Origin: Nitrospirota bacterium
GTDB taxonomy: Bacteria; JACPQY01
DNA: 43,389 bases
Direction of reading: 5' to 3'
Assembly (NCBI GenBank): GCA_016190245.1
Contig: JACPQY010000050.1
Span: 1 to 43,389, forward strand
Below, piece after piece: positions 5,258 to 41,669 of this stretch; positions within the stretch are counted from its first letter, which is position 1; every line of letters begins with the position of its first letter. Made by a program: the position numbers and the translations under genes. The notes below the pieces were generated by a model. That model did no database searches. It was not told the DNA's origin and saw only the letters and a program-made list of their open reading frames with translations.

Positions 5258-5258
5258 C

Positions 5259-14239: not shown

Positions 14240-14244
14240 CGCCG

Positions 14245-15549
14245 ATGCTGCAGGAGATCTTTGAAAGCATGGAGACCCGCCTCCTGGGCAAGATCCAGTC
14301 CAGCCCCGACGCTCCCCACCATCGCGACAGGTACTCGCTCGAAATCGCGCGCTTGGGCCGGCGGCTATACAGTGGCACCGGCCCCGTGGCCTACGGCGGC
14401 GTCGCGGCGCCCTACGACATCCTGGCCGCCATGGGGATCTCCTCCTGCTTCGTCGAGTTTCTCGGCGCGATGCTCGCGTCAGGCGGGGCGGTCACGCCCG
14501 TCCTGGAGGAGGCCGAGGATGCGGGCTATTCCCCCGACACGTGCGGATACCACCGCTCGACCATCGGAGCGGCCCGACAGGGGCTCCTGCCCGTGCCCGA
14601 TTTCCTGGTCGGCACCACGTTCCCCTGCTCCGGAGGACTCGCCGTGCTCGAGAATCTCGCGCGGCACTATTCGAAGGATCTGTTTGTCCTTCACATCCCG
14701 AAAGCGGACGGGGCGGACGAGGTGAGCTACCTGGCGGATCAGATTGAACGGATGGTGGCCTTCATCGCCCGGCACACGGGGCAGGCCCTTGACCCCAACC
14801 GGCTTCGCGCCGCCGTGGAGAAAACCAACGAAGCAAGCCGGATCATGACCGAAGTCTACGAACTTGCGCGCCACGTCCCATCGCCGGTGGACAGCAGCGA
14901 CCTGAGAAACTTTGCCGTCGTGATGGCCCTCTTCCTGGGGACCGAGGGCTCGCTGGAGGTCGTCCGGGCCTACCGCGAGGAGTTCGGGCGCAGGGTGAGC
15001 GCGGGGGTGAGCGGCCTGCCGGGAGAGAGGTTCCGTCTGATGTGGCTCCAGAACCGCATCCAGTTCAAGCATCCCCTTGAGAAGTTCATGGCGACGGAGT
15101 TCGGGGCATCCGTCGTGGTGGATGAGCTCAACGATGTGACCTGGGATCCGATCGATCCCGACGATCCCTTCTCCGGCGTGGCCCGGCGAATCCTTTCCTT
15201 TCCCCTGAACGGAAGTGTCGAGAGGCGGATTCGTCACCTGCGTGACCTGTCACGTCGCTACAAGATTGACGGGGCCATCAATCCTTGCCACTGGGGCTGT
15301 CGGCAGGGCACGGGCGCGCGAGGTCTGATCGAAAGTGCGATGGGCGAGATCGGGGTTCCGGTGCTGAACCTTGAAGTGGACTGCGTGGACGTGCGCAACT
15401 TCGCGGAGGGCCAGTTGAGGACCCGGATCGAGGCCTTTTTCGAGATGCTCGACGGTCGGCGCGCAGGAGCGATCGCGCCGAGCCCCTCTCCTCCCCTTTG
15501 TAAGGGGAGGTCGGGTGGGGTAGAAGCGCCCGAGCACGAGAGGGGGTAG
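14245..15549 (+). CDS. 2-hydroxyacyl-CoA dehydratase / benzoyl-CoA reductase family, larger subunit
   Basis: 434 residues from ATG 14245. Family signatures: DTCGYHRSTIGAA and FLVGTTFPCSGG in the N-terminal half, INPCHWGCRQGTG near residue 350, and LRTRIEAFFEML near 400. The cysteines in these motifs are the likely cluster ligands. The size resembles BcrB/BadE. The protein should end near DGRR (~407), but the frame runs another ~27 residues (APSPSPPLCKGRSGG and on) encoded by an inserted hairpin repeat (15472-15549). That tail is not conserved-looking and probably arose by repeat insertion at the old stop. Together with the smaller subunit it forms the heterodimeric catalytic core. The activator gene follows after 2 bp. 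Confidence 0.88.
   Translation: MLQEIFESMETRLLGKIQSSPDAPHHRDRYSLEIARLGRRLYSGTGPVAYGGVAAPYDILAAMGISSCFVEFLGAMLASGGAVTPVLEEAEDAGYSPDTCGYHRSTIGAARQGLLPVPDFLVGTTFPCSGGLAVLENLARHYSKDLFVLHIPKADGADEVSYLADQIERMVAFIARHTGQALDPNRLRAAVEKTNEASRIMTEVYELARHVPSPVDSSDLRNFAVVMALFLGTEGSLEVVRAYREEFGRRVSAGVSGLPGERFRLMWLQNRIQFKHPLEKFMATEFGASVVVDELNDVTWDPIDPDDPFSGVARRILSFPLNGSVERRIRHLRDLSRRYKIDGAINPCHWGCRQGTGARGLIESAMGEIGVPVLNLEVDCVDVRNFAEGQLRTRIEAFFEMLDGRRAGAIAPSPSPPLCKGRSGGVEAPEHERG
15472..15549 (+). repeat. Hairpin repeat read into the dehydratase C-terminus
   Basis: CCTCCCCTT (15490-15498) and AAGGGGAGG (15502-15510) form a perfect 9-bp stem with a TGT loop, flanked by GCCCCTCT and TCGGGTGGGG. The sequence type is a common intergenic repeat; here it lies inside the reading frame and supplies the last ~27 codons of the dehydratase subunit as well as the GAGGGGG ribosome site of the activator gene. 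Confidence 0.55.
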
Positions 15550-15551
15550 CG

Positions 15552-16349
15552 TTGGCCTACTACCTCGGTCTCGATATCGGCAGCCTCTCGTGCGATGCGG
15601 TCGTGGTGGACCGGGATGAGAAGGTGAGAGCCAGTACTGTGGTCCCGACCGGGGCGCGGAATCGCCAAGCGATCGCCCGCGCAACCGAAGAAGTGTTGGC
15701 CGCGGCCGGCATCGCGAAGGAAGACATCACCGCCATTGTGTCCACGGGATACGGCCGGGAACGGGTGGAGGGTCGGCTGACGGCGGTGACGGAGATCACC
15801 TGTCACGCCCGCGGCATCCGCGCGCTGTTTCCGGACACGCAATTGCTCATTGACATCGGGGGACAAGACAGCAAAGCCATTCGCCTGAACAAGGAAGGGA
15901 AGGTGGTCCAGTTCGCCATGAACGACAAGTGTGCCGCGGGGACGGGGCGGTTCCTGGAGGCGATGGCGCGGGCGCTCCAGGTCGAGATTGACGAGCTCGG
16001 GGAGATGGATCTGGGCTCGCAATCCGGTCTCGCCCTCAGCAGCATGTGCACCGTTTTTGCGGAGAGCGAGGTTGTGTCTCTCATCGCGGATGGTCACGAG
16101 GTGAAGGAGATCGTCGCGGGGCTCAACCGGGCCATCGCCCGCCGGACGCTGTCGCTCGTGAAACGAGTTTCCCCGCAGATCAACGGCGTTGCGGTGGCCA
16201 TGTCGGGCGGTGTGGCGCGAAATGCCGGCGTCGTGCGCGCGATCGGAGAGGTGCTTAAGTGCGGAGTGGTGGTCCCACCCGAGCCCGACACCGTGGGCGC
16301 TTTGGGCGCCGCCCTGATCGCCCGGGAGCGCGACGTGGAGCGTGCCTGA
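15552..16349 (+). CDS. 2-hydroxyacyl-CoA dehydratase activator ATPase (HgdC/BadF/BadG type)
   Basis: 265 residues starting at TTG 15552, preceded by GAGGGGG. It has the ASKHA/actin-fold nucleotide-binding motifs GLDIGSLSCDAVVVD (phosphate 1) and LLIDIGGQDSKAI (phosphate 2), and AMSGGVARNAGV (adenosine). The two cysteines that bridge a single [4Fe-4S] cluster between the subunits of a homodimer are present: Cys127 in NDKCAAGTGRFLE and Cys166 in SSMCTVFAESEV. Known activators couple hydrolysis of two ATP to injection of one low-potential electron into the dehydratase. Only one activator gene is present, as in hydroxyacyl dehydratases, whereas classical benzoyl-CoA reductases carry two. The electron donor (ferredoxin or flavodoxin) is not encoded here. 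Confidence 0.93.
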   Translation: MAYYLGLDIGSLSCDAVVVDRDEKVRASTVVPTGARNRQAIARATEEVLAAAGIAKEDITAIVSTGYGRERVEGRLTAVTEITCHARGIRALFPDTQLLIDIGGQDSKAIRLNKEGKVVQFAMNDKCAAGTGRFLEAMARALQVEIDELGEMDLGSQSGLALSSMCTVFAESEVVSLIADGHEVKEIVAGLNRAIARRTLSLVKRVSPQINGVAVAMSGGVARNAGVVRAIGEVLKCGVVVPPEPDTVGALGAALIARERDVERA

Positions 16350-24871: not shown

Positions 24872-26719
24872 TCAGCGGCGCAGCCGTCGCCGGAGGGCAA
24901 AGAACGCCAAGGGGAGAATCGAGAGGACCGAGGGAAGGGTTCCTCCGGCCGGCCCGAACGAGTGACAACCGCACTGCGGAGGCGGGGGGGGGGAGTTGGC
25001 CTGTGACGCATTGGGATCGGTCCCCGAGCCGCCGCCCTCTGTCCCCTTGCCGTCCTTCCCACCGGCAGGTTCGGGCGCGGCGTTTCCCGTGCCGTCGGTC
25101 CCGGGAGGGCAGGGGCCGCCGGTGGTGCCGTCCAGTCCCGAAGAGCAGAATTTCACGAGATCGCCATCCAGACGAATGTCGTCGATCTCTACGCGGAATC
25201 CAGCGTCCTTGCGAGGTGCGTTCAGATAGGGTGCGGACGAAGGCTGCGTGTCCTTTGCAAAACGCACCTTGGGAGGACTGCCCGGGAAGAAGTCGTCGGC
25301 TGAGCCCTGGTCTGAGTCGGCGTCCGTGTCCAGATCCTGCGCGCCTCCGTGAGCCTCCTCCACGTCCACGCATTTCTGGGCCGGATTGTTCTGCACGCTG
25401 TTGTCCAGGAAGCCCTTCTCGCAGACCGTCTCGTCCACGTGGTAGATGATGAGGCCCTCGTTCGGGAGCCGAGCGTCGAATCCGATCTTCTGGCGATTCT
25501 CCAGCAGGAAATACTGCGTGTCGTCCGGCCCGTTCGCGTTGATCCGGATCACGTCCGCGTTCTGCTCCACCGGGAGGAGTTGACCGTTGCAATCGCCCGT
25601 TCCGAGATAGCGCGGAGTGGCCCAGCCGAGGATCACCTTCATCCACGCGGAGAGATGCGTGGGGAGGTGGGGAGAGGCGTTGTCCGCGCCGTACGCGCCG
25701 GTGGCCATCACGTCGAAGATCCCGATTCCGTCGCTGCCGCCGTCCACGTCGTAAAGATCCGGGAGCTGGAGGATGTGGCCGAACTCGTGCGTGATGACGC
25801 CGATGTTCACGGCGCCGATCTTGCTGCATGGGTTGCTGGCGGGCCCCACGCAACTCTTCTCGGGGACGACGAGGAAGTCGCGCACCTTCACGCCATCCAC
25901 GCTCACGGGGTTGGGAAGGCTCGTCATGGCGGACCACAGGTCGGACGGCGAGCCGCTCTCCTCCGCGCCGAGGCCGGGATGAAGGACGAAGAGGGCGTCA
26001 ACGAACCCGTCGCTGTCTGCGTCGAAGCCGGAGAAATCCACCGTGGAATCGAACTCCTGCACGGCGTCGCGCGCGAGGGTGACGAGGTTTGGTTCCCCCG
26101 TGCAGAGTCCCGACTCGCCGCAGGCGTAGCAGGAATAGAGAGGGGAGCCGCCGCACTTGGTCGAGCTCACGATGGAACGGGGCCCGGAGATCGAGCCGGA
26201 GATATTGAGCAGGCCGTAGGAGACCTCCTTGTAGAAATCGCGCATGCTGCCCGAAGGGATCGTGCCCACGAAGGTGTCCTGAAGATCTTCGTTCGTGACG
26301 GACCCGTCGCGCTTGTTGTCGTTGAAGTCCAGCCGGAGGATGGCGATCCGGATCGAGGAGGGGGCCCTCACGTCGGGCAAGGCGCGAAAGGGGAGGATGA
26401 GGCGGGGAATTCGTTCCGAGGGTTCAGGGAGAAGCTCGCGCAGGGCGGGCTTGAAGGGCAGCGTCCGCAGGGCGAGGTAGCCGGTCGAGTGGAAGCGCCG
26501 GGTGACCGGATCTATGAGACTGGGCCTGGGGGGAATAATACAGCCTGCCGGGTTGTACCGTGCGCGGATCTTGGTGACCTTCGCGGATGTCGCAGTGTCG
26601 GGCGAGGGGCACTGGTCCGCCGCGCGCGAGGGGGCGTCCTGTGTTTCCGGCCCGGCCGAGTCGCAGCCGGGGAAGGAGCCGACCGTGAGGGCCAGGACGC
26701 AGGCGAGAAGGGCTCTCAT
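24872..26719 (-). CDS. M6-family (immune inhibitor A-like) zinc metalloprotease, lipoprotein with C-terminal anchor
   Basis: 615 residues. The N-terminus ALTVGSFPGC is a lipobox with Cys19. The catalytic region has GVITHEFGHILQLPDLYD (HExxH near residue 310, third ligand in the following DLYD stretch) and the Met-turn-like FDVMATGAYG, as in M6 peptidases. The distal part has an acidic, Gly/Pro-rich stretch and ends CGCHSFGPAGGTLPS, a hydrophobic helix and RRRLRR: a MYXO-CTERM-like sorting signal. Carrying both a lipobox and a C-terminal anchor is unusual and also seen in two proteins further right. It probably acts outside the cell or at the surface. The start overlaps the previous gene's stop (ATGA). 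Confidence 0.87.
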   Translation of the reverse strand: MRALLACVLALTVGSFPGCDSAGPETQDAPSRAADQCPSPDTATSAKVTKIRARYNPAGCIIPPRPSLIDPVTRRFHSTGYLALRTLPFKPALRELLPEPSERIPRLILPFRALPDVRAPSSIRIAILRLDFNDNKRDGSVTNEDLQDTFVGTIPSGSMRDFYKEVSYGLLNISGSISGPRSIVSSTKCGGSPLYSCYACGESGLCTGEPNLVTLARDAVQEFDSTVDFSGFDADSDGFVDALFVLHPGLGAEESGSPSDLWSAMTSLPNPVSVDGVKVRDFLVVPEKSCVGPASNPCSKIGAVNIGVITHEFGHILQLPDLYDVDGGSDGIGIFDVMATGAYGADNASPHLPTHLSAWMKVILGWATPRYLGTGDCNGQLLPVEQNADVIRINANGPDDTQYFLLENRQKIGFDARLPNEGLIIYHVDETVCEKGFLDNSVQNNPAQKCVDVEEAHGGAQDLDTDADSDQGSADDFFPGSPPKVRFAKDTQPSSAPYLNAPRKDAGFRVEIDDIRLDGDLVKFCSSGLDGTTGGPCPPGTDGTGNAAPEPAGGKDGKGTEGGGSGTDPNASQANSPPPPPQCGCHSFGPAGGTLPSVLSILPLAFFALRRRLRR

Positions 26720-29046: not shown

Positions 29047-29076
29047 TTGACACATGGCGATCGTCGGGGCTATTGT
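29047..29076 (+). promoter_or_regulatory. Promoter of the five-lipoprotein operon
   Basis: TTGACA (29047-29052), 18 bp, TATTGT (29071-29076). RNA would start near 29083, immediately before the ribosome site GGAGGGAG (29087-29094) and ATG 29100. No other promoter-like sequence was seen between the five genes, whose gaps are 47, -4, 4 and 10 bp. Confidence 0.6.
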
Positions 29077-29099
29077 CAATTGAACTGGAGGGAGTTGCC

Positions 29100-32000
29100 A
29101 TGCGCATGGAGAGGTTGAAAGTCTACGCCCTATTTCTGGCCGTATTCATAGCTTTTGCGTGCTCGACGGACAGTTCGAGCAGCAGCAGTTCCTGCAGCGA
29201 ATCGGACAGCAGCACTTCCAGCACAACGCCCCTCACCCTCACCATCCCCTCCTTTGACGTGGATGCCAACGGCACCTGCGACCTGTGCAACTCCATGGAC
29301 GTCAAGCTCGACAACGCCCTGCTTGACTACCTGAACCGCACGATCAATTGCCTCCTCGGCAAGAACGATGGCCGCTGCAACTTTAGCGATCCGAACAATC
29401 CCTCCACCGAGCTCAACATGACCAAGGATATCCTCACAGGTCTCATCACCGACCTCCTGGGGGACACGAGCCAGGCCCTTTTCGAATTCACGTTCGGCCT
29501 CGATCCCTTCGTGCCCGACATGTGCCTGGCCCTTTTCTTCGAGGACCTCGACAACGACGGCAAGGCGTTCGACTATTCCGTGAACAAGGCCGAGATCGTG
29601 CCGGACCTGACCCGGCAAGCCCTCTCCGTTGTCATCGACCTCGCGCCCGTGACGGCCGACCTCCGATTCCGCCCGCCGACCTCGACCGGCGAGGAGGACT
29701 GCGCGGTGCAGTCGAACGGCGTAGCGCAGGTGGATCCGACGGACCCATCCATGTACGTCGCCGATCCCTTGAAATTCGTCACCGTGAATGCCAAGGCGGA
29801 CATCGCCAACCTTACCCTCACCATGGCCGTGCGCGCCCTCGGCGGCGATCCGGTATCCGTCGACGGAAACGGCAATCCCATCCGCCCGCTCAACCCCGGC
29901 ACGCAACTGGCGCTCGAAATCCCCTACGTCACGCTGGGCACGGGTCTCGACATCGACCTGACGCTCCCGTCCAACCCCGACACCCTTTCTCAGTCCTTCG
30001 CGGCCATGCTCCCGTTTATCAGCCTCGATCTTTCCTTGTCGCTGAACAACCAGTTTGACGCAGCCGTCTCGAAATACTTCGGCCCGACCCCGATGCTGGA
30101 TGCTTCGACGATGCTGACGGACCTTCTCGCCAGCGACAGCCTGGGGGGTCTGACGGGAGACGATTCGTCTTCCTCCTCCAGCGCCACCGATGCCTGCGCG
30201 GCCCAAGGCGGTTTCACGCACCCTCTCACCCAAGCATGTATCACCTTCGGCCTCGGCTTCAACTTCGATTTCCTGACCTCGTGCACGATGGAAAACGGCG
30301 GCAGCACCTCCGCGTGCGAGCCTCAGTTCGATCCGGGCGGAGCGAACCTCAAGGGCGGACTGGGCCTTGCCCTATCGTATCCGAGCCAGTTCAACTGCAC
30401 CTTGCGGCCGCCCGCGGCCGCGCCGGTGGTCATGCCCATCAACCCGCTCTCGTTCCCCGGCACGATGCTTGGCATCGGTCTCCATCAGGACATCCTCAGC
30501 GCCGTTATGTACAACGCCATGACCTCGGGCATCGCCTGCGTCAACATCGACAACGCCACGTTGGTCGCCCTTGGCGTGGACCTCACCGAAATGGGCCTCC
30601 CGGACCTCTTCAACACCGACACGCTCGGTCCCTTCCTGTGGCCCGATCTCCAGAAGGCCTTCCCGAGCTCGGAGGTGAAGTTCGCCATCGCTCCCAAACT
30701 CGTGGACCCCCGCGACGGCCAGTACGTCCTGGCGGAGGACACGCCCACCCTCCTCGTGGGCGGCCACACGATCGATGCCAATGGGAAGTCCGTCCCGGCA
30801 GACCTTCTCGCACGCATCCCGCACCTCGCCTTCGGCATCCAAGTGGATGTAGACCGCGCCAAGAACTTCCAGACCGCCGCGGAGGTGGACGTCGGCCTCG
30901 AACTCGGGGTGGCGCTGGACGTCTCCCGCAAAGTGACCAACGACCAGGGGCAGCCCGTCTTGGATTCGGACGGCAATCCGAGTTGGCTGATGTCCCTCGA
31001 GGTGGGCATCGAGAGCAATCCGCAACTCCGCACGTTCACTTTCAACACCGAAGTGCTCGACCAGGGGAAGAAGTCGCCCGACAAGGTTGTCTCCGAACTC
31101 TTTGGCCTCGTGCTCAGCGTGGCCGTCGGCCTCGACCTGGGTGCCGACATCAACCCCAACGAGTTGCTGGGCATCACGCTGCCCATGTTCGATCTTCTCA
31201 TCGATCCCATGGGCGCGGACAGCGACAGCTTCCCGATCAACGTGAACGGAAAAACGGAGGGGGACGACAACGGCAAAGGGGACTACTTGGGGATCACGCT
31301 CGATTTCCTGGACGGTAGCGACGCCGATTCCGACCCCGACATTCTCTCGCCCAAGGCCGTGTGGACCGCTGCGGCAGGGTTCATGTGCACGGCCGATCCC
31401 TCGGAGGCGATGGACGAAACGTGTCGTCCAATCCTGCACGAGTTGTGCAACACCTGCCCCCAAGTGAACCAGTGCAACGTGGTGCGTACAACGTATTGCA
31501 CGGCACCGCCGACAGACGACACGATCTGCCCCAATTTCCCGAATCCAACCTGCCCCTCGACCGCCCCGGCTCGGTCCGCGCCGACACGGCTCCTCGATCG
31601 TGAGCCCGACACGTTCATCCAGCTCGCGGACGGTCGGTTCGGAAAGAATCTCGTCCTCACGGCGGTCGAGGCCAAACAGGCCGGCTTCCAGTCGTTCGAC
31701 TCCGTTGCCGAGTTCTTCGGCGAAAACGGCGCGCGCGAGTTCAGTTGGAAGCTGGATTTCGGCCCCTGGCACTTCTACACGCCCGATCGGTACACCGGAC
31801 TCCCCGGTCTTTATGAAGGCTGGCACAAGCTCCAGGTGAAGTCCCGCGGAGACGGGCGCATCGTGGACGGCACCCCGGCCACGCTCCTATTCCGCATGGA
31901 TACCGTGGGGCCGGAGATCCGCGTTCTGGGTGACCCGGCGGCGCCGGTCGGGAAGAACCCTTCCTTCAAGATTTCGGTGAGCGACCGGCAGGGGCCCGAG

Positions 32001-32294
32001 GAGGCCATCCGCGTCTCGCACAACCTCGATGGCGGAGAGTGGAGTGACGACTCGGACCGACGCGAAATCCGAGCGACGGGCTTGGCCGAAGGCGAGCATC
32101 GTCTCGGCCTGAAGGCCATGGACGACGCCGGGAACGTGACCGAAACCTCCCACGCGTTCGTGGTGGACCACTCCGTGCGATCGGCGGGCGGATGCGTCTC
32201 CGTACCGGGAGCGGCCGGCGGGTCAGGGGCCGCCATGTTCCTGCCTCTCCTTCTCGCGCCTCTCGCCCGGCGACTCCGCCGGCGGGCCTCCTAG
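29100..32294 (+). CDS. Large surface lipoprotein, TULIP/BPI-like region, Ig-like modules and C-terminal sorting signal
   Basis: 1064 residues. ATG 29100 has an excellent ribosome site. Lipobox at AVFIAFAC (Cys21), then a Ser-rich linker. EF-hand-like acidic loops occur (DLDNDGKAFD near 150). Around residues 445-485, LSFPGTMLGIGLHQDILSAV and MYNAMTSGIACVNI recall the BPI/LBP (TULIP) barrel motif, and the downstream strands (VKFAIAPKL, LARIPHLAFGIQVDVDRA) fit it too. The same motif recurs in the operon's fourth gene. From ~830, two Ig-like modules (FGPWHFYTPD, DTVGPEIRVLGDP). The end, GGCVSVPGAAGG, a helix and RRLRRR, is MYXO-CTERM-like. The TULIP reading is inferred from motifs only; homology to the fourth gene is visible directly. 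Confidence 0.78.
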   Translation: MRMERLKVYALFLAVFIAFACSTDSSSSSSSCSESDSSTSSTTPLTLTIPSFDVDANGTCDLCNSMDVKLDNALLDYLNRTINCLLGKNDGRCNFSDPNNPSTELNMTKDILTGLITDLLGDTSQALFEFTFGLDPFVPDMCLALFFEDLDNDGKAFDYSVNKAEIVPDLTRQALSVVIDLAPVTADLRFRPPTSTGEEDCAVQSNGVAQVDPTDPSMYVADPLKFVTVNAKADIANLTLTMAVRALGGDPVSVDGNGNPIRPLNPGTQLALEIPYVTLGTGLDIDLTLPSNPDTLSQSFAAMLPFISLDLSLSLNNQFDAAVSKYFGPTPMLDASTMLTDLLASDSLGGLTGDDSSSSSSATDACAAQGGFTHPLTQACITFGLGFNFDFLTSCTMENGGSTSACEPQFDPGGANLKGGLGLALSYPSQFNCTLRPPAAAPVVMPINPLSFPGTMLGIGLHQDILSAVMYNAMTSGIACVNIDNATLVALGVDLTEMGLPDLFNTDTLGPFLWPDLQKAFPSSEVKFAIAPKLVDPRDGQYVLAEDTPTLLVGGHTIDANGKSVPADLLARIPHLAFGIQVDVDRAKNFQTAAEVDVGLELGVALDVSRKVTNDQGQPVLDSDGNPSWLMSLEVGIESNPQLRTFTFNTEVLDQGKKSPDKVVSELFGLVLSVAVGLDLGADINPNELLGITLPMFDLLIDPMGADSDSFPINVNGKTEGDDNGKGDYLGITLDFLDGSDADSDPDILSPKAVWTAAAGFMCTADPSEAMDETCRPILHELCNTCPQVNQCNVVRTTYCTAPPTDDTICPNFPNPTCPSTAPARSAPTRLLDREPDTFIQLADGRFGKNLVLTAVEAKQAGFQSFDSVAEFFGENGAREFSWKLDFGPWHFYTPDRYTGLPGLYEGWHKLQVKSRGDGRIVDGTPATLLFRMDTVGPEIRVLGDPAAPVGKNPSFKISVSDRQGPEEAIRVSHNLDGGEWSDDSDRREIRATGLAEGEHRLGLKAMDDAGNVTETSHAFVVDHSVRSAGGCVSVPGAAGGSGAAMFLPLLLAPLARRLRRRAS

Positions 32295-32338
32295 GCGGTG
32301 CCCCAAGGCCCGAGGATGGAAATGGGGAAACCACGGAC

Positions 32339-32393
32339 GTCATGAGTCATGGGTCACGGGTCATGAGCAGAGTCATCCGAATTTCGAAATTCG
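32339..32393. repeat. Heptamer array and 16-bp palindrome at a gene start
   Basis: GTCATGA, GTCATGG, GTCACGG, GTCATGA run in tandem (32339-32366), with another GTCATCC at 32372-32378, then the perfect palindrome CGAATTTCGAAATTCG (32378-32393). The array contains both candidate ATG starts of the following lipoprotein gene and encodes its N-terminal residues. Confidence 0.65.
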
Positions 32394-34045
32394 AATTTCG
32401 GCCTTCGACTTCCGAAATCCGCTCCCCCGCCTCCCTCTTCAGCTTCTCTGCTTTCGCTCTCTCGCTTTCCTCCTTGCCCCTTGCCCTTCTCACCATCGCC
32501 TGCGGACGCTCGGGCGGCACCGACAGTTTCCGAATCCCTTTCTCCGCCAGCGCCATCGTGGATAATTCCTCGGATGCCGGGATTTCACCCTCCTTGCGTT
32601 TTGACGCCCAGAGAAACGCCTTCATCAGTTACTACGACGTCAAGTGCAAGGCTCTCAAACTCATACAGGGCGTTCCTTCGGAAGCGGGCTATGCCTGGCA
32701 ACCGATCGTCAAGACGGGCGATGCCAATCTTCTGGATTGCGGTCCCCTGGAGGAAAACCTTGCCGTCATCCGCGGCCAGATCGTGGATCTCGGCCCCCGC
32801 GCAGGGCAGGGCGTCGGTTACTTCAACTGGCTCCTCCTCGACCGCGATGCCCGCCCGCATGTCGTCTACTACGACGGCGACAATCGCCAGCTCAAGTACG
32901 CATGGGCGACCGGCACAAACCCGGACGGCACGTGGGAGTTCAAGAAGGTCTTCCTGGACTCATCCGGCTCCGCCGTAGGCAAGTGGCTCACCGCGGCCCT
33001 GGATGAGGCCACGCCTCAGAACCTGCACGTGGCCTACGTGGACAGCGAGTTCCAGAAAGTGAAATACCTCCGTTGGAATCGCTCGTGGGATGAGGCCGCC
33101 GAAAAGGATCGGCCGGTCATCGCAGACATCGAACTGGTGGACCTCGGCAACGTGCCGGGCCAGGAACCCACGGGGAAACCGCTGGCTGCCGCGGAAGGCT
33201 CCCGTGTGGCCGTCGCCATCTCGCCGGGGAAGTCCGTGGCCGATCAGGACATCTACGTCCTGTACTATTCCTCCTCCGACGGTGACCTCCGGCTGGCCAC
33301 GCGCAAGGCCCTCTCGCCGCGCGGAACCGCCTTCGCCATCAGCATCCTGGACGATCTCCCCAAGACGAAAGCGTCCGGCAGCACCCCCGAGCTTCCGGGG
33401 GATCTCACTCCGGACAACGTGGGGCTCTGGCCCGCCGCCATCGTGGATCCGAACGGCATTCTCCACATCGCCTACGTGGATGACTCGAACAAGGACCTGA
33501 AGTACCTGCTCTATTCGTCGAAGCTGGGGAAATGGTTCCCGCGCTATCAGCGGGTGAAGAACTTCGATGTCTCCAAGATCCAGGTCCTGGTTGAACTCTT
33601 GGATCCCGAGACGGTCGAAACGGAGACGCGCGTGGTGAGCGAGCAGCCCCTGCGCGATCTTTCTCTCTCCACCGGAACGACGGTCCTCGAGGAATGGGTG
33701 GGTGAAGTGGTGATTGACGGTTCGGGGGCGGGCACGGGCGTCGCGGCTTCCATCACGCTCGATCCCTTCAACCGTGCCATCCTTTCCTACCGCGACGGCA
33801 CCACCGGCGATCTGCGAATCGCTTTCCAGGACTCCCTCACGCCTTCCGTGGTGGGACACTCCTGGATCACGGTGCCGCTCGACGACCCGCGCACCGTCGG
33901 GATGTGGAGTTCGGTGGAGGTCATCGCGGGCGAGGAACCGCAGGATTGGGCCCTCGGGATCAGCTACCAGGGCTTTCAACTCCTCGAAACCGGGGCGCGC
34001 CGTCACGTCCTCATGTTCCGCTATTTCGACAAATTGGAGGCATGA
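32342..34045 (+). CDS. Beta-propeller lipoprotein, first of two tandem paralogs
   Basis: 567 residues from ATG 32342; ATG 32363 is equally possible, and neither has a strong ribosome site because both lie in a heptamer repeat. The long n-region ends in LPLALLTIAC (Cys54). The mature protein repeats a blade of the type hhxYxDxxxxxLKYhxW: FISYYDVKCKALKLI, HVVYYDGDNRQLKYAW, LHVAYVDSEFQKVKYLRW, LHIAYVDDSNKDLKYLLYS and AILSYRDGTTGDLRIAF. This resembles BNR/Asp-box sialidase-type propellers but lacks a sialidase active site, so a binding role is likely. Its stop overlaps the next gene's ATG. It is clearly homologous to that next gene along its length. Confidence 0.8.
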   Translation: MSHGSRVMSRVIRISKFEFRPSTSEIRSPASLFSFSAFALSLSSLPLALLTIACGRSGGTDSFRIPFSASAIVDNSSDAGISPSLRFDAQRNAFISYYDVKCKALKLIQGVPSEAGYAWQPIVKTGDANLLDCGPLEENLAVIRGQIVDLGPRAGQGVGYFNWLLLDRDARPHVVYYDGDNRQLKYAWATGTNPDGTWEFKKVFLDSSGSAVGKWLTAALDEATPQNLHVAYVDSEFQKVKYLRWNRSWDEAAEKDRPVIADIELVDLGNVPGQEPTGKPLAAAEGSRVAVAISPGKSVADQDIYVLYYSSSDGDLRLATRKALSPRGTAFAISILDDLPKTKASGSTPELPGDLTPDNVGLWPAAIVDPNGILHIAYVDDSNKDLKYLLYSSKLGKWFPRYQRVKNFDVSKIQVLVELLDPETVETETRVVSEQPLRDLSLSTGTTVLEEWVGEVVIDGSGAGTGVAASITLDPFNRAILSYRDGTTGDLRIAFQDSLTPSVVGHSWITVPLDDPRTVGMWSSVEVIAGEEPQDWALGISYQGFQLLETGARRHVLMFRYFDKLEA

Positions 34046-35766
34046 AAGCCGTGAAGTCGGGAGGTCGTGAGGTCGGGAGATCCAGGGCGCCTGCCTCGCC
34101 CCATTCCTTCCGACCTTTCTCCTTTCTCCTTTGGCCTTTGGCCATTTTCTCCGCCGTCACCACGGCGTGCGGCCGCTCGGGCAGCGAGGACTTGGTGAGA
34201 CCGCTCCCGATCCCGTCCGTTGTCGTGGATGACTCGGGAGACGCGGGCGTGGGCGCCTCCCTCAAGTTCGACGCGCGCGGCATGCCGCACATCGCCTATC
34301 ACGATATTAAAGAGAGAAGCCTCAAGTACATCTACTTCGCGAAGACCGGCGGGGCCACGGGGCGGTGGCTGCCGCAGATCGAGATCGACGTGCTTGACGA
34401 GTTTGGTCTCCCCACCGGCCAGGTGACCACGATCAAGGGGCAGGTCGTCGATCAGGGCCAGAAAAGCTCCGGGGACGGCGTGGGGAAATGGAGCAGTCTC
34501 CTGCTCGACCGCCTCAATCGTCCGCACGTGGTCTACTACGACGACGATAACAAGCAGCTCAAGTACGCGTGGGCCCTCTACGCTTGGAGCGACGGCTCAT
34601 GGTCGTGCTACCCCGAGGTCACCCGCGATCGACAGTGGTGCATGGTGTGGCTCGATCCGGACGCCCTCAACGTCGGCCGCTGGGTGGCCGCGCTCCTCGA
34701 CGACTCGGACCGGCAGGACCTCCACGTGGCCTACGTGGATGCGACATCACGCAAGGTGAAATACCTCACGTGGTGCCGCTTGACATCCTGTGGCGAGGGC
34801 GGCGTGGCCTGGGACCCGAAAGTGGACGGTGACCGTGTCGCCGTGGCCGGCGCGTTCGTGGATCCCGGGGCGCTCGCCAACGGTGAACAGCCGAGCAAGA
34901 CGGCGATTGCCTTGTCCAGGTCGGACGCCGAGGAAGGGCCCGACACTCTCTACATTCTCTACTACGATCCGAATCAAACGGCACTGGGGCGTCCGGATGG
35001 GAATCTCCGGCTCGCGAGAAAAGTCCGTCTCGGGGGCGAGTGGGAGATTCTTCAACTCGATGACCTCCTGCCGGGTGCCAAAACCCCCGGCGACAAGACC
35101 CCGAGCGACGTCGGCCAATGGGCCTCTTTGACCGTGGACCTTCGCGGCCGCCTCCACATCAGCTACACCGATGCCCTCTCCGGCGACCTCAAGTACCTCG
35201 TCTACTCTCCCGCGCTGACCCGCTGGTATCCGCGCTTTCGCACGATCAAGAATTTCGACCGTGGCACGCTCCAGGTGCTGCGCGAGGACGCGCCGACCAC
35301 CGCCGAAGGCTCGGCCAATATCGTCCTCGTCAGCGAACAATCGCTGGCGGAGGTTACCCAGCCCGAAGGGCAGGAAGTGATCGAGGAGACGGTGGGACAA
35401 GTGGTGGAGGACGGCACCGGGCCCGGCACCGGGCTCGAAAGCACCATCGCCATGGGGCCCAACGGCAGACCTCTTGTCTCTTACAGAGACGGCGCCACCG
35501 GCGATCTGAAGTTGGCGGTCCAACTCCCCACCCGCGTGAACGAGGCCGGAGTGAGCGAAGGAACCTCGTGGGAGATCCTGACGATCGATACTCCAAAAAT
35601 TGTGGGTCTCTGGTCGAGCATGGCGTCTTTCACCTACTCCCAGGAGGTCCTCGAAGGCTGGGTGATCGGGGTCGCCTACGAAGGTTTCGAGCAAAAGGCG
35701 GACGGAGCGCTCGTGCGGCGTCTCCTGTTCCGCGTCTTCAACCCGTTTGTCATGCCCATGTTGTGA
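34042..35766 (+). CDS. Beta-propeller lipoprotein, second of two tandem paralogs
   Basis: 574 residues. ATG 34042 lies in an ATGA overlap with the previous stop, and GGAG is well placed. Lipobox in IFSAVTTAC (Cys43); the same CGRSG follows the cysteine in both paralogs. Blades: HIAYHDIKERSLKYIYF, HVVYYDDDNKQLKYAW, LHVAYVDATSRKVKYLTW, LHISYTDALSGDLKYLVYS and PLVSYRDGATGDLKLAV. The n-region is encoded by three tandem octamers (34056-34079). The pair arose by tandem duplication; the second has an insertion with extra Trp/Cys (WSDGSWSCYPEVTRDRQWC). No catalytic residues are recognised; partner or glycan binding at the surface is the best guess. Confidence 0.8.
   Translation: MKAVKSGGREVGRSRAPASPHSFRPFSFLLWPLAIFSAVTTACGRSGSEDLVRPLPIPSVVVDDSGDAGVGASLKFDARGMPHIAYHDIKERSLKYIYFAKTGGATGRWLPQIEIDVLDEFGLPTGQVTTIKGQVVDQGQKSSGDGVGKWSSLLLDRLNRPHVVYYDDDNKQLKYAWALYAWSDGSWSCYPEVTRDRQWCMVWLDPDALNVGRWVAALLDDSDRQDLHVAYVDATSRKVKYLTWCRLTSCGEGGVAWDPKVDGDRVAVAGAFVDPGALANGEQPSKTAIALSRSDAEEGPDTLYILYYDPNQTALGRPDGNLRLARKVRLGGEWEILQLDDLLPGAKTPGDKTPSDVGQWASLTVDLRGRLHISYTDALSGDLKYLVYSPALTRWYPRFRTIKNFDRGTLQVLREDAPTTAEGSANIVLVSEQSLAEVTQPEGQEVIEETVGQVVEDGTGPGTGLESTIAMGPNGRPLVSYRDGATGDLKLAVQLPTRVNEAGVSEGTSWEILTIDTPKIVGLWSSMASFTYSQEVLEGWVIGVAYEGFEQKADGALVRRLLFRVFNPFVMPML
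34056..34079. repeat. Tandem octamer array (3 units)
   Basis: GTCGGGAG, GTCGTGAG, GTCGGGAG in tandem just inside the start of the second propeller gene, coding for part of its n-region (SGGREVGR). Confidence 0.6.
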
Positions 35767-35770
35767 GACT

Positions 35771-38700
35771 ATGGAAAAGGCAACCCCTGTCCTAAGAACC
35801 TGGCGGGCACGCATCGAGCGATACGTCCCGCTGCGCATCCTGCTCTTCTGGCTCCTCGTCCTCGTTGTGGCTGGATGCTCGGATGGCGGATGCACCGGCT
35901 GCTCGGAGGAAGACAGCAGTGGCGGCCTGCCGCCTCTTGAAGACCCCACGAAACGAAGCGGCGCCCCCTACGACAGCAGCGTGAAAGACGTCCAGTCGGG
36001 CCTCCCCCTCAACCCGATCCCGCACCCGGTCAAGGGCGGTACGTGCACGGACAAGTATGGCCACGATTCCGCCACCTGTTCGCCCATGCCCCCCTTCCTC
36101 AACTTCGAGGCCATCCCTTTCCGCCTCACGGCCGACCCGGTGGGTGGCAGCCAGGACACCGGCTTCGCTTTCATTCAGGAGAAGCTCGACAAGATTATCG
36201 GTGATGTGGACATGCTCACGGAGGTCATCAACAGCGCGCTGGACCCCAACGAGCCGGTGGCCGACGAGGACCTCTGGTTCTGTCAACTCACCATCTACAT
36301 CCGCGACACGAGCGGCGACGGAATCGCCATCTACTTCGACCCCATGGATTCGGCCACGGGCCACAGCTACGTCAACAAGTGCTCGAACGATCCCAACCCT
36401 TACGTCCAGCTCCCTCTCATCACAGACCAGGATACGGTGGGCCTGAGCCTGCGCCTCAACGATTTCTCGATCGAACTGGCCGTGGAGGGATCCTGCGGGA
36501 TCAACTGGATCCGATTCAGCGCCAAGGTGGTCTCGCTGGGCGAATCGAACGACTACGACTACTGCGGCGACGCCGGGCAGACACCCGTGAATGACGTGGT
36601 GGGCCGCTTCGACCCCATGAAACGCACCGAGTTGACCCGCTTCCCGAGCATCCTCGATGCCGATGTGGCGATCAATGACCTTCAGTTCGTTGATGAGGAA
36701 ATCATCATGGACACGGGGTGTGGGTGGTTCTGCAACCTGCTGCTCGATTGGCTCCTCAACGACCTCGGACTGGGCAGCCTGCTGCTCGATCTATTCAAAG
36801 GCGAGCTGCTGACCCCGATCGAGGACGCCATCCAGGAGGCCGTCCAGGAAATGTTCCCCATCGATGTCATGGGCCTGATGACCGGTTGGACCCAGCCCAC
36901 CATGATCCCGAAAGGCACCAACCCCGCCATCGGCGATCAGACGTGCGGCGGGGCCACGGATGTGAAATGGTGTACGCCCGAGTGTCATCCGGACTCGGCC
37001 CGCTACTACGGCGTCATGGGTGGGGCCCAGTCGCTCATCGGCATGGCCCTCTATCCGCACTTGGACGTGGACAACCAGGGGTTCCTCCTCCCCTTCGACT
37101 TCGGAATGAAACCCGTGACCTCCGATCTCTCCCTCCTCAAGTCGGCGGACTGCTACGAATCGCTGTCCACCACCAATCCCCCTAACCCCACCTCCGCCGC
37201 CCCCGTCAAATTCAACTACCTCAGCTTCAACGGGACAAACTACCACATGGCCTTCGGCATGTCGCAGGATCTCCTCGCCTGGATCATGTATCAACTCTAT
37301 GTGTCGGGCAGCTTCTGCATGGAAATCCCCGACCCCAACGCGGACGACAGCAGCGATGAAGAGGAGGACATCTTCTCGTCCTTCGACCCCACCATGCTCC
37401 TCAACCCCGCCTCGCTGGCCTTCTCCATGGCCTCGCTCGAGATGCTTGTCCCCGCCGTGAAGAATTTCGCGAGTGGTGACGGGAGCCAGACGGTCATGCT
37501 CCGCACCCTGCCGCGCGGCACCCCCACCGCGGAAATCGGCGCGCCGATGTGGAGCACCTCCACCACCACCGGCTCGTGCCCCGATTTCATCTGCAACGCG
37601 AACGAAACGGCGGACAGTTGCCCCCAGGACTGCCGCGCCGACTTTGAATTCACTCTCCCCAACTACGACATCGATATCATCCTGAAAGGCGTGGACGGCT
37701 CCGCCCTGCAACGCCTCATGTCCGTCCGCACGAAAACCAGCATGCAGGTCGCCCTCGACTACTTCACGGGCGAGGGGTTCTGTCCGCGGGCGGATTCGGA
37801 CTCGACCACCTCCGATCCAGTCTGCACGCCCAGCGTCACGGTCAACGGCAAAGACTGCAAAGACCCTGTCAACGCGGCCACCTGCTGCTCTTCCACGATG
37901 GAGTTCGGCTGCAGCAATGACGAATTCGGGACGGTCGTGGACTGCGCCACATGCGCTTCCTCCAACTTCACGGATGCGGTGGCGTGCCAGGGGCTCGACG
38001 ACAACGACGGGACGGATGAAGACGATGCCTGCCTCCAGTTCTTCGTGGACACAAAACTCGACATCGAAAGCGTCAGATACCTCGATGTGAACACCGAGCC
38101 GGACCGCAACCTCACGGATACCGGCGGCAACTGCCTCACCGTCTCCGAAGACACGAGCACCAACCCGGTGCCTCAGTCTCTCATCGACAATTGCAAGCAG
38201 CTCCGCAGCGGACTGGCTGAGTTGCTCGGTGAAATGCTCGAGATGGCGATGACCGCGAGCTTCAGCACGAAGATCGCCATCCCGGGCATCAAGCTCAAGT
38301 TCCTGCATATGGGGCCGGAACCGATGACCAAGCTCGAAGGCTCGGAAGGCCAGGACGGGGACGGCAACGGAGCCAAGGACTTCTGGACGGCCTACGCGCG
38401 CTTCGAACAGTTCGACATCATCGAGCTGATGATCGGAGATCTCCTCACCGGCATCGAGGAGACGGAGTGCGACTCGGACACGATCTGCGAGACCGGCGAG
38501 GACGAGTCGAACTGCCTTGCCGATTGCTTCGATCCGAACAACGACACGTGCGTCGGAGGCGAGGAGGCCCTCGCCTACGGGCCGACGGTTGACTGCAAGT
38601 GCGGGGATGCCATCTGCCAGACGGCCGGCGTCATCGGAGGTCAGAACGAGCGGTACGGCACGTGCTCGGACTGCGGCCCCCCCCCCGTCTGCGGCAATGG

Positions 38701-39682
38701 CGCGTGCGAAGGGTGCGAGGCCCTCGATGCCACCTGCTCGGACGGACAATCAAACTACCATTGCACTCAGGACTGTTTCGGCGGCGACGGCGTCTGCTCC
38801 TCCACGCTCAATGAGAGTATCTGGAGCACGGACCCCGGCGCGAAATCGGACTGTCTGCTGGACTGCAACGCGACGTCCGAAGATGGCGGCTCCAGTCTCT
38901 TCGCGCCCGTTCGCGCCGGCGTCGTGGGCTACCAGTCGGATATCAACCCGGGGGCGCCGGACGCGCTTCTCTCCCTCCTCCCGGATGAGCCGCCGAGCGA
39001 TTTCATCCAGCTCGATGCCCGGACCACGGCCGACCGGGGGATCACCCCGCTCGGCGGCACCGTCTACGTTCACTACACGGATGACCGTGACAGGGGAGCG
39101 AAGTACACTTGGCGGAATGACGAGGGGCCGTGGGAGATGATTTCGGCGGAGCCGGCCATCCATCTGCGACCGCAGCTTGAGGGTGAGCATCGCGTGGAGG
39201 TCCAGGCGGTTGACACCGACCACAATGTGGACCCCACGCCCGCCGTCGTGAGCTACGTGGTGGACACCCAAGGTCCGGCCATCCGCGTGATCGGGCCGCA
39301 ATACCCCTCGCCCGAAACCGTTGAACTGCGCGTGGCCTTGGCGGATGCCGTCTCCAAGGAAGACAAGATTCACGCAGAGTGGAGCCTGGGCGGCGGGGAA
39401 TACTCCCCGCTCGCTTCGGATCGGCTCGTGAACATCGCGGGGCTGCCGGACCAGACCTCCCACGCCCTCCTGGTCCGGGCTTTCGATGAGGCGGAGAACA
39501 AGAGCTTCACCCAATATCACTTTACCGTCAGCTACCCGTCGCATGCCGACGAGGGCGGTCTCTCATGTGGTTGTGACATCGTGCCCGGTTCAGGTCCGCT
39601 GCCGTGGGGGGAACTCCCCCCCGCCGCGGCCTTCGTCGGATATCTCCTCTTCCGCCGCCGGCGCGTGGCCCGACGGCCGTAG
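35771..39682 (+). CDS. Large Cys-rich surface lipoprotein, homologous to the operon's first gene, with C-terminal sorting signal
   Basis: 1303 residues from ATG 35771. Lipobox WLLVLVVAGC (Cys36), followed by CTGC. EF-hand-like loop DTSGDGIAIYFD near 180. The motif FNGTNYHMAFGMSQDLLAWI followed by MYQLYVSGSFCMEI (~484-518) matches the first gene's TULIP/BPI-like motif, and DFEFTLPNYDIDIILKG fits the following strand. Cys repeats of the type C-x-x-x-x-C-N-x-x-E-T-x-x-x-C-P-x-D-C (CPDFICNANETADSCPQDC, CDSDTICETGEDESNCLADC) are common in myxobacterial surface proteins. From ~1060, Ig-like modules (NDEGPWEMIS, DTQGPAIRVIGP). The end, SCGCDIVPGSGPLP, a helix and RRRRVARR, is MYXO-CTERM-like. Function unknown; calcium-dependent binding of hydrophobic ligands is conceivable. 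Confidence 0.78.
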   Translation: MEKATPVLRTWRARIERYVPLRILLFWLLVLVVAGCSDGGCTGCSEEDSSGGLPPLEDPTKRSGAPYDSSVKDVQSGLPLNPIPHPVKGGTCTDKYGHDSATCSPMPPFLNFEAIPFRLTADPVGGSQDTGFAFIQEKLDKIIGDVDMLTEVINSALDPNEPVADEDLWFCQLTIYIRDTSGDGIAIYFDPMDSATGHSYVNKCSNDPNPYVQLPLITDQDTVGLSLRLNDFSIELAVEGSCGINWIRFSAKVVSLGESNDYDYCGDAGQTPVNDVVGRFDPMKRTELTRFPSILDADVAINDLQFVDEEIIMDTGCGWFCNLLLDWLLNDLGLGSLLLDLFKGELLTPIEDAIQEAVQEMFPIDVMGLMTGWTQPTMIPKGTNPAIGDQTCGGATDVKWCTPECHPDSARYYGVMGGAQSLIGMALYPHLDVDNQGFLLPFDFGMKPVTSDLSLLKSADCYESLSTTNPPNPTSAAPVKFNYLSFNGTNYHMAFGMSQDLLAWIMYQLYVSGSFCMEIPDPNADDSSDEEEDIFSSFDPTMLLNPASLAFSMASLEMLVPAVKNFASGDGSQTVMLRTLPRGTPTAEIGAPMWSTSTTTGSCPDFICNANETADSCPQDCRADFEFTLPNYDIDIILKGVDGSALQRLMSVRTKTSMQVALDYFTGEGFCPRADSDSTTSDPVCTPSVTVNGKDCKDPVNAATCCSSTMEFGCSNDEFGTVVDCATCASSNFTDAVACQGLDDNDGTDEDDACLQFFVDTKLDIESVRYLDVNTEPDRNLTDTGGNCLTVSEDTSTNPVPQSLIDNCKQLRSGLAELLGEMLEMAMTASFSTKIAIPGIKLKFLHMGPEPMTKLEGSEGQDGDGNGAKDFWTAYARFEQFDIIELMIGDLLTGIEETECDSDTICETGEDESNCLADCFDPNNDTCVGGEEALAYGPTVDCKCGDAICQTAGVIGGQNERYGTCSDCGPPPVCGNGACEGCEALDATCSDGQSNYHCTQDCFGGDGVCSSTLNESIWSTDPGAKSDCLLDCNATSEDGGSSLFAPVRAGVVGYQSDINPGAPDALLSLLPDEPPSDFIQLDARTTADRGITPLGGTVYVHYTDDRDRGAKYTWRNDEGPWEMISAEPAIHLRPQLEGEHRVEVQAVDTDHNVDPTPAVVSYVVDTQGPAIRVIGPQYPSPETVELRVALADAVSKEDKIHAEWSLGGGEYSPLASDRLVNIAGLPDQTSHALLVRAFDEAENKSFTQYHFTVSYPSHADEGGLSCGCDIVPGSGPLPWGELPPAAAFVGYLLFRRRRVARRP

Positions 39683-39692
39683 GGAGCGAGTC

Positions 39693-41669
39693 ATGATCGG
39701 CAGGTCTCCATTTCGGCAAGCCCTCCTCGTCCTCGCGGCCTTTCTTGCCCCTGCCTGCTCGAGCAGCGACAGCGCCACCTCCCCGGCGGCCGACGTCGAG
39801 CGCCTCGCGGAGACGGTCAAGGCACACCCAGAGGACATCGCCGCCCAAGCGGAACTTCTCGCCGTTCTCAATGGGTCGGGCTCGGCGGAAATCTGCACCG
39901 CGGACCCCGACGCCGACGGGCGCGTGGCCGCCCTCGAGGCGGTGGATGCCCTCCGCGGGCGCGTGCCCGCCGCCACAAAGGAGACAGCCGGCACCGGCCA
40001 GGGGAAGGCGCCGATGGAGGCACTCCTGGATCGAGTGGACAGCCTTTGCCCCCAGCACAAGGGCGAGACCGGCTTCACCCGCGCCATGATGCGCGTGGCG
40101 GGATTCGCCGAGCCTTTAGGCGAGCTCGCCCAGGCCGTGTCCAGCCTCGCGGCCCCGTCGGGAGACGCTCCTCCGGACCTCACGGCGCTGGCCGGCCTTG
40201 CGATCTCAGTCCTCAGTCCCGATACACCCTGCGCCGAGGGGAGCCTCGCGATGTGCGGACGCGACCTGTCTCAAGCCGTCGAGGCGATGAGCCCGAGCTT
40301 CCCGAACGGGGTGTACGATGTCGAGAACGTGGTGCTGACCGTCGGAGACGAGTCCGTGGATCTCAGCGGGCGCTACAACGAAGCGACTCTCCGCATCCTC
40401 GCCGCCGCGGGGGAGGGGGTCTACGGGGCGCTCCTCTTCGCCGCCGCCCACGTCGATATCTCCGCCCTCCTGCCGGAAGCCACACCCCTCCTTTCCGGCG
40501 ATTTCGGCTTCGCCACAGCGGGCCAGATCCTGGCTACGGTTGACGCGGCGGACGGCCTCCTCCTGAAAGTTCTCGAAGGGGCCGTGACTCTTTCGCAGGG
40601 CCCCACCCGGCTGGTGGAGTCGAGGGACGGCCTCATCCGATCGCTGCGCTGGATCAACGGTGACGAGCCTGGCGATGCTCCCGCCTTCATCCGCGCCCTC
40701 GAGCACAGTACCGAGGAGGGATTGGGACTCCGCTTTGTGGATCGCAACGGCGACGGCCGGCTCAACGGCTGCGACCATCTCGAAGTCAATTTCGCCTTCG
40801 CTCGGCCGTACCTCGAGCAATACGCGGATCTCATCAGGCTGGCCAGTCTCGCCACGGGGTGCAGCGGGATCCTGCCGCCCAACACCGTTGCGCTGCCAAG
40901 GATGGTGAGCGGCGGCGACATTGACTACCCGGCGCTCTGGTCCACGCTCGCCCGAGCCCTCACCAAGGTCGAGTTGGCGCTTTCGGATCCTCGCATCGCC
41001 CTTGGCCCGGCGGATGTGAACGCGTTCCTTTCTCCGCTCGGACTTCAAGCCCTGGCGCTGCCCGAAGTCGCCGAGGTCCATCCGGGCGTTGTCATGGAAT
41101 CGGGCCTGAGCTTCCTTGCGCCTGCCTCGACTGGCAGTGGCTCATCGCTGCGACTCCTACTGGAAGCCGAGATCAACGCCGATGCGGCAGCCTGTCCGGA
41201 TGCCAAGTCAGCCAAAGGGGAGTTCGTCTGCCGCAGCAAGTCCGGCCGTCAGGACTGGTCCGCCTCCATCGCGCGAGGCGACGCGGAGCACTTCGGCGCC
41301 GGAGCCGACCGCATCTATGTGACCGAGGCGTTGCTCGACGAAAACAAGATTGAGGCAAACAGCTTCCTGCGCGCCTCGCGGGGTGGGGGAATCCTTCCTT
41401 ATCTCAAGTTCAAGCATGTGGACCTGAAGGGTGTCCTTCGTGTCACGGAAGGGCTTGTGGCCGACGTGACCGCCGGCGTACCGGGCGGCCAGGCGGACGG
41501 CGTTTGCCTGCGGGAGATCGGCGCCGCGCCGGCGGGAACTCTCACCGGCATGGACACCCGCTCTGCCAACGCCCTCATCAATTTCGCCATGGTCCGCATG
41601 ATGGCCTGTCGGACGGAACACGACATGATGTCCATGGCCCAGACCTCCGGCTTCCCCCTCGGCCGGTAG
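39693..41669 (+). CDS. Lipoprotein with EF-hand-like calcium loops, unknown function
   Basis: 658 residues. ATG 39693 follows GGGAG at 5-6 bp spacing and lies 10 bp after the previous stop. Lipobox VLAAFLAPAC (Cys22), then a Ser/Asp linker. Two loops fit the EF-hand pattern: DPDADGRVAALE near 70-81 and DRNGDGRLNGCD near 350-361, with acidic or Asn residues at loop positions 1, 3, 5 and 12. The middle is helical and Ala/Leu-rich (LAQAVSSLAA, ILATVDAADGLLLKVLEGAV). Five or more cysteines recur (SGSAEICTADPD, SLCPQHKG, TPCAEGSLAMC). No family is recognised. As last gene of the operon it may bridge the large paralogs and the propellers, but that is inference. Confidence 0.75.
   Translation: MIGRSPFRQALLVLAAFLAPACSSSDSATSPAADVERLAETVKAHPEDIAAQAELLAVLNGSGSAEICTADPDADGRVAALEAVDALRGRVPAATKETAGTGQGKAPMEALLDRVDSLCPQHKGETGFTRAMMRVAGFAEPLGELAQAVSSLAAPSGDAPPDLTALAGLAISVLSPDTPCAEGSLAMCGRDLSQAVEAMSPSFPNGVYDVENVVLTVGDESVDLSGRYNEATLRILAAAGEGVYGALLFAAAHVDISALLPEATPLLSGDFGFATAGQILATVDAADGLLLKVLEGAVTLSQGPTRLVESRDGLIRSLRWINGDEPGDAPAFIRALEHSTEEGLGLRFVDRNGDGRLNGCDHLEVNFAFARPYLEQYADLIRLASLATGCSGILPPNTVALPRMVSGGDIDYPALWSTLARALTKVELALSDPRIALGPADVNAFLSPLGLQALALPEVAEVHPGVVMESGLSFLAPASTGSGSSLRLLLEAEINADAAACPDAKSAKGEFVCRSKSGRQDWSASIARGDAEHFGAGADRIYVTEALLDENKIEANSFLRASRGGGILPYLKFKHVDLKGVLRVTEGLVADVTAGVPGGQADGVCLREIGAAPAGTLTGMDTRSANALINFAMVRMMACRTEHDMMSMAQTSGFPLGR

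Follow-up and report, generated by a model that had tools for sequence, protein, structure and literature searches.

A candidate surface module of paired BPI-fold proteins and propeller lipoproteins in a Nitrospirota bacterium

Introduction

The contig JACPQY010000050.1 of a Nitrospirota bacterium, a stretch of 43,389 nucleotides that is referred to as the window in the following, carries five genes with a lipobox which are arranged head to tail at positions 29106-41669 and separated by intergenic gaps of 47, -4, 4 and 10 bp. Order, gaps and lipoboxes agree with an earlier note on this DNA, which had proposed a calcium-dependent surface complex of all five gene products. The first and the fourth gene encode giant proteins, and the locus thus raises the question of what these giants are and which of their neighbours belong to them. 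According to our analysis genes 1 to 4 probably encode a surface-anchored, paired TULIP system that binds or transfers lipids or other hydrophobic molecules, a reading to which we assign a probability of about 60%. The main result is the BPI-type TULIP fold of the giants, which the earlier note had not recognised. The contig belongs to a 3.29 Mb assembly (G000) that is 84.8% complete and whose phylum is represented by two genomes in the survey set.

Fold of the giant proteins

The two giants are organised as follows (Ig, immunoglobulin; FnIII, fibronectin type III; TM, transmembrane helix):

29106..32294 (+): gene 1, giant A, 1062 amino acids, with lipobox (Cys19), predicted double-TULIP (BPI-like) body, two Ig-like modules and Cys-TM-Arg tail
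29286..31316 (+): gene 1 residues 61-737, which align with both BPI domains and also with CETP and LBP (VIA, Foldseek)
30468..31322 (+): predicted C-terminal TULIP domain of gene 1 including the motif LGIGLHQDILSAVMYNAMTSGIACVNI, where homologues match the Pfam family LBP_BPI_CETP_C
31599..32174 (+): Ig/FnIII/PKD-like module pair of gene 1, residues 832-1023 (PF19077 at E 0.001, below cut-off; VIA rows over 831-1024)
32190..32291 (+): MYXO-CTERM-like tail of gene 1 composed of GC, hydrophobic helix and Arg (from the sequence; helix 1041-1061 in the model)
35771..39682 (+): gene 4, giant B, 1303 amino acids, with lipobox, probable double-TULIP body, Cys-rich insert, two Ig-like modules and CGC-TM-Arg tail
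36014..38461 (+): gene 4 residues 82-897, the modelled body, for which LBP and BPI were retrieved first
38957..39535 (+): Ig/PKD-like module pair of gene 4
39566..39679 (+): tail of gene 4 composed of CGC, hydrophobic stretch and Arg (from the sequence)

Before any structure existed, the central motif of gene 1, LGIGLHQDILSAVMYNAMTSGIACVNI, had appeared to resemble the start of the BPI C-terminal domain, and a relation to BPI was therefore tested by separate routes. The product of gene 1 was modelled with AlphaFold2 based on 17 aligned sequences. A Foldseek search of this model against 350,542 PDB chains retrieved BPI (1bp1 and 1ewf) and CETP (2obd) as the top three matches with E values of 1.5e-12 to 4.6e-11, the best of them being human BPI 1bp1 (E 1.5e-12). 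In the VIA comparison 419 of the 456 residues of 1bp1 aligned with residues 61-737 of the model at Z 12.0, covering both domains, and LBP (4m4d) reached Z 8.8. These values place gene 1 among the tandem two-domain TULIP proteins. The predicted local distance difference test score (pLDDT) is about 70-84 across most of the C-terminal TULIP core; due to a root mean square deviation of 8.3 the relative placing of the two domains is unreliable. The predicted TULIP strands of gene 1 furthermore alternate between hydrophobic and polar residues across the homologues (3.18 versus 1.32 in shuffles, none of 2000 being as strong).

The giants are also homologous to each other. As had been noted earlier, they share the central motif LSF-GT...QD-L...MY...SG..C, a C-terminal pair of Ig-like modules (30% identity over 223 columns, E 8e-21) and a C-terminal tail of cysteine, hydrophobic helix and arginines. 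In addition, their bodies align beyond the motif in a profile-profile comparison (270 columns, probability 99%, E 7.5e-18). Since the model of the gene 4 body is of low confidence (pLDDT 39), it was given a supporting role only. It retrieved LBP first (E 5.5e-4) and BPI next, and its top VIA rows were likewise TULIP proteins (LBP, BPI, CETP, SMP-type and PLUNC-type). Unrelated folds of genes 1 and 4, named in the earlier note as an outcome speaking against it, were thus not found, both models retrieving BPI or LBP first.

At the sequence level PF02886 (LBP_BPI_CETP_C) matches three of the 17 type A homologues, i.e. homologues of gene 1, weakly at the central motif (E 0.0023-0.075, below cut-off). 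When the genomes were searched with this model two bacterial proteins exceeded its cut-off. One of them, the bridge protein from G182, aligns with the greater part of the PF02886 domain (36.1 bits, cut-off 23, E 6e-9) and also matches the gene 1 profile (E 1e-6). Direct sequence searches of the PDB yielded nothing for genes 1 and 2 and one chance-level row for gene 4, and profile searches of the PDB either remained without a match or returned only light-harvesting entries (E 1.4). Based on the PF02886 matches, the bridge protein, the models, the profile alignment of both giants and the strand alternation, gene 1 is firmly assigned by computation to the double-TULIP proteins of the BPI type, to which gene 4 probably belongs as well.

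The bacterial proteins above the LBP_BPI_CETP_C cut-off are encoded at L124:1477-3612 (-) and L123:1-1395 (-), one of them with a glucodextranase-B-like Ig domain.

Propellers and conservation of the gene order

Two propeller-type lipoproteins are encoded between the giants:

32342..34045 (+): gene 2, propeller-type lipoprotein (40% identity to gene 3)
34042..35766 (+): gene 3, propeller-type lipoprotein, BNR_4 (PF15892; 33 bits, cut-off 27.3)

Genes 2 and 3 are indeed tandem paralogs, as the earlier note had stated (40% identity over 583 columns, E 3e-114). Gene 3 exceeds the cut-off of BNR_4, to which gene 2 is tied via its identity to gene 3; a sequence search with gene 2 gave no matching solved structure. 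In the tree of the propellers genes 2 and 3 form one group with their orthologs in G001, a genome of the same family and another genus (support 94/99). One ancient pair of propellers common to all lineages is not supported by this grouping, and by sequence the two propellers of the operon arose by later duplication.

The TULIP part of gene 1 was found by profile search in 20 of the 386 genomes, its core motif being kept over more than ten families while the giants differ greatly in their loops in the alignment. If giants of the gene 1 and gene 4 types are termed A and B and the propeller lipoproteins p, the order A-p-p-B is present in the window, in G001 and in G169, and A-p-p-B-B in G306. An additional A-p-B copy was detected in the own genome (contig C44) and in G001 (C3). 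G015 encodes A-p-p up to the contig end, and A-p occurs in G060 and G050. A third gene in G050 was considered as a B giant, with no match to B found. The search for the same gene order elsewhere, which the earlier note had suggested as a check, thus revealed its recurrence in unrelated lineages for genes 1 to 4.

In a tree of 24 giants from different lineages types A and B are split by one branch (support 100/99), so that A and B are ancient paralogs by their sequences. Either the pair therefore existed before these lineages diverged, or its two members have travelled together. Both the fold and the module have good support.

Alternatively, the genes might not form a functional unit, surface lipoprotein genes having come to lie side by side by chance or in particular lineages only. 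This would account for the unlinked position of gene 5 elsewhere (see below), for the separate origin of the propeller pairs in different lineages and for A genes standing alone. However, the recurrence of A-p(-p)-B in G169 and G306, which belong to another phylum than G001 and G000, and its occurrence twice in each of the latter two largely refute this explanation, which we regard as very improbable.

In both related genomes the second A-p-B module is followed immediately downstream by a gene for a TMEM260-like O-mannosyltransferase (PF11028, over cut-off; L009:4054-6006 (-) and L037:4998-6743 (-)), which could glycosylate the giants. The tandem B giants of G306 (L100:3126-6254 and 6498-9644 (-)) have C-terminal halves that are identical in the region compared, which by sequence is due to a recent duplication or gene conversion.

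Anchoring and sorting tails

Gene 1 ends in GGC...RRLRRRAS and gene 4 in CGC...RRRRVARRP, and type A relatives carry FGC or GGC and a basic end. Both giants hence show the three-part form of the MYXO-CTERM signals, in which a motif with Cys is followed by a hydrophobic helix and by arginines; proteins with such signals are sorted by the myxosortase MrtX (PMC11980579). The corresponding model TIGR03901 matches three of 17 type A members at E values up to 1 (best 0.0054), mostly sub-threshold, and gave no match for gene 1 (P0006); tails of relatives match MYXO-CTERM or JDVT-CTERM models weakly. All five relatives tested (G001, G015, G169, G045 and G306) encode a CPBP protein whose myxosortase core domain (Mrt_core) exceeds the cut-off of 100 bits (102-134 bits). 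Judging from the tails, surface display of the giants is likely.

The N-terminal lipobox of genes 1 and 4 is absent from several A homologues in other lineages, and some B giants appear to carry an N-terminal membrane anchor. Giants with both anchors would be tethered at both ends. Four B giants (L009:6090-9275, L037:6747-10094, L010:6038-9241 and L011:5959-9156) end a few residues after FGC or WGC without a hydrophobic helix and look as if they were encoded already "cleaved".

Lipobox and C-terminal helix could also bridge two membranes, as would be expected for a periplasmic machine of outer membrane biogenesis in which lipoproteins of the outer membrane that face the periplasm carry lipids or lipopolysaccharide (LPS) across it, as has been proposed for DUF4403 and YceB, and the C-terminal helix holds the inner membrane. 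Other bacterial TULIP proteins have been proposed to act there (PMC6791001), and the apparent N-terminal membrane anchor of some B giants would fit. However, the tail has the Cys-TM-Arg sorting form with myxosortases in all five tested relatives, and Ig stalks typically occur on the cell exterior; a periplasmic role is less likely because of these tails and stalks. Since the family is furthermore restricted to just 20 of 386 genomes, unlike a general biogenesis function, this explanation seems rather improbable.

Tails of this kind are not restricted to the giants. An M6-family metalloprotease at 24872-26719 (-) of the window (TIGR03296, 142 bits) has the Cys-TM-Arg tail CGCHSFG...RRRLRR of the same type as the giants and is therefore probably sorted in the same way. 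At 5190-8231 (+) a single open frame encodes a part resembling PhoPQ_related hydrolases, which is joined with a CTERM-like tail (GCETARGGQGSG...) and with an outer-membrane transporter of the FadL/TodX type (PF03349, E 5e-18).

Gene 5, calcium and the upstream region

39693..41669 (+): gene 5, lipoprotein with two EF-hand-like loops, adjoining here and outside the conserved module

The earlier note had described EF-hand-like loops in genes 1, 4 and 5. Gene 5 shows a clear excess of them, two full D-x-D-x-DG...D/E loops versus 0.008 expected. Genes 1 and 4 possess short D-x-D-x-[DN]-G loops only (two and one, counts reached in 36 and 275 of 1000 shuffles, respectively), and the full 12-residue EF-hand loop pattern was detected in neither of them. 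D-x-DG-type loops are kept in the alignments of the homologues. With the excess being clear in gene 5 only, the proposed calcium dependence of the complex is weakly indicated.

Gene 5 occurs in three copies in each of the two related genomes, and the five other copies are not located near any giant, which rules it out as a part of the module. The five-part complex proposed earlier is consequently reduced to genes 1 to 4, for which it is backed by the recurrent A-p-B order, the A/B split in the tree and the sorting tails.

The site at 29047, previously taken as a good promoter, matches 10 of 12 positions but is no better than chance (one found versus 1.6 expected in shuffles). Elsewhere in the window a BadF/BcrA-type ATPase activator (PF01869) is encoded at 13181-16349 (+) after genes which by eye resemble 2-hydroxyacyl-CoA dehydratase subunits, pointing to an anaerobic lifestyle.

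Proposed function

Each giant is predicted to carry a BPI-type TULIP pair, in which long amphipathic strands form tubes that a helix closes off, and from its fold should offer two hydrophobic pockets on a stalk of two Ig-like modules. Its anchors would be an N-terminal lipid in this organism and, at the C-terminus, a Cys-TM-Arg sorting signal such as myxosortase cleaves, and the one or two propeller lipoproteins made between the giants are probably docking or scaffold subunits. On the external side of the outer membrane the TULIP pockets may bind a lipid or another hydrophobic molecule, which would then be handed from one giant to the other or exchanged between the outer membrane and something beyond the cell (a neighbour, a vesicle or a hydrophobic nutrient). 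That a heterotypic pair was kept together for long and that propellers are made between its members suggests a physical complex which binds and hands on a hydrophobic ligand. Surface exposure in this organism, the lipid cargo and the direction of the transfer are what we infer from fold, tails and gene order. A tentative and more specific version is an outer-surface lipid-transfer system in which a myxosortase-sorted, propeller-held heterotypic BPI-fold pair would shuttle lipids or LPS between the outer membrane and the surroundings of the cell, in a CETP/LBP-like manner but on the surface of the bacterium itself.

Several observations weigh against the proposed TULIP system. The model of gene 1 is only middling (mean pLDDT 61, predicted template modelling score 0.41), that of the gene 4 body is poor, and neither gene 1 (P0006) nor gene 4 (P0004) itself has a TULIP family match in Pfam. 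The absence of a B match for the third gene of G050 belongs here as well, as do the A genes without a nearby propeller in G072, G212, G341, G015 (C118) and G045. A myxosortase was not found in the own genome, which is incomplete as stated above, and some of the B giants without a C-terminal helix are encoded there. Finally, the TULIP folds could be structural here, lipid binding being predicted from the fold.

The latter possibility leads to a surface adhesin or recognition complex, in which TULIP parts on Ig stalks serve as structural or protein-binding heads, the propellers bind glycans or proteins of a partner and no lipid is moved. In favour of this reading, the Ig/FnIII-like stalks are similar to modules of adhesins like SiiE, surface recognition is the role of MYXO-CTERM proteins such as TraA (PMC11980579), gene 5 carries EF-hand-like loops and the loops of the giants vary a lot. 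However, both giants retain the TULIP body, and the motif kept over more than ten families together with the amphipathic strands across homologues exceeds what a freely evolving head would need. An adhesin therefore seems unlikely, albeit less so than the periplasmic machine, and we prefer the surface-anchored TULIP system with hydrophobic ligands.

Comparison with known systems

BPI, LBP and CETP of the TULIP superfamily, whose C-terminal domain is PF02886, possess the tandem TULIP pair that is the best fold match of both giants; the sequence link via PF02886 is weak directly and stronger via the bridge protein. In contrast to them, the giants are bacterial, far larger, equipped with Ig stalks, lipobox and sorting tail and encoded in pairs with propeller lipoproteins, and the identity in structural alignments is about 8-12%.

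The described bacterial TULIP proteins comprise DUF4403, YceB (DUF1439), DUF2140, DUF2993 and P47/OrfX and are either small and periplasmic or secreted (PMC6791001). DUF4403 resembles the giants in that it is often a lipoprotein and contains a BPI-like domain pair, whereas TULIP proteins of diderm bacteria are small and predicted to be periplasmic, with no propeller partner or CTERM tail described (PMC6791001). The Pfam models of DUF4403, YceB, DUF2140 and DUF2993 were absent among the A and B members scanned (A4 to E 1, A5 to E 5).

The MYXO-CTERM proteins sorted by MrtX (PMC11980579) share the Cys, hydrophobic helix and Arg-rich end with the giants, whose relatives encode myxosortases; they differ from the giants in that the tails of the latter are mostly sub-threshold to the model and are combined here with an N-terminal lipobox. 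Regarding BNR_4, whose cut-off gene 3 exceeds, the propellers of the module are distinguished as lipoproteins encoded beside a TULIP giant, gene 2 lacking a sequence match to any solved structure. A surface TULIP-propeller module was not described in the literature searched, a limited search that is no proof of novelty. The fold as such is known.

In eukaryotes TULIP proteins transport lipids from membrane to membrane, and in animals they serve in the recognition of LPS. If the proposed function holds true, a conserved paired surface BPI-fold system in uncultured bacteria would be a bacterial parallel to CETP and LBP and would bear on the origin of the BPI fold. It would furthermore extend MYXO-CTERM-like sorting to a new cargo and provide a testable candidate for lipid exchange outside the outer membrane.

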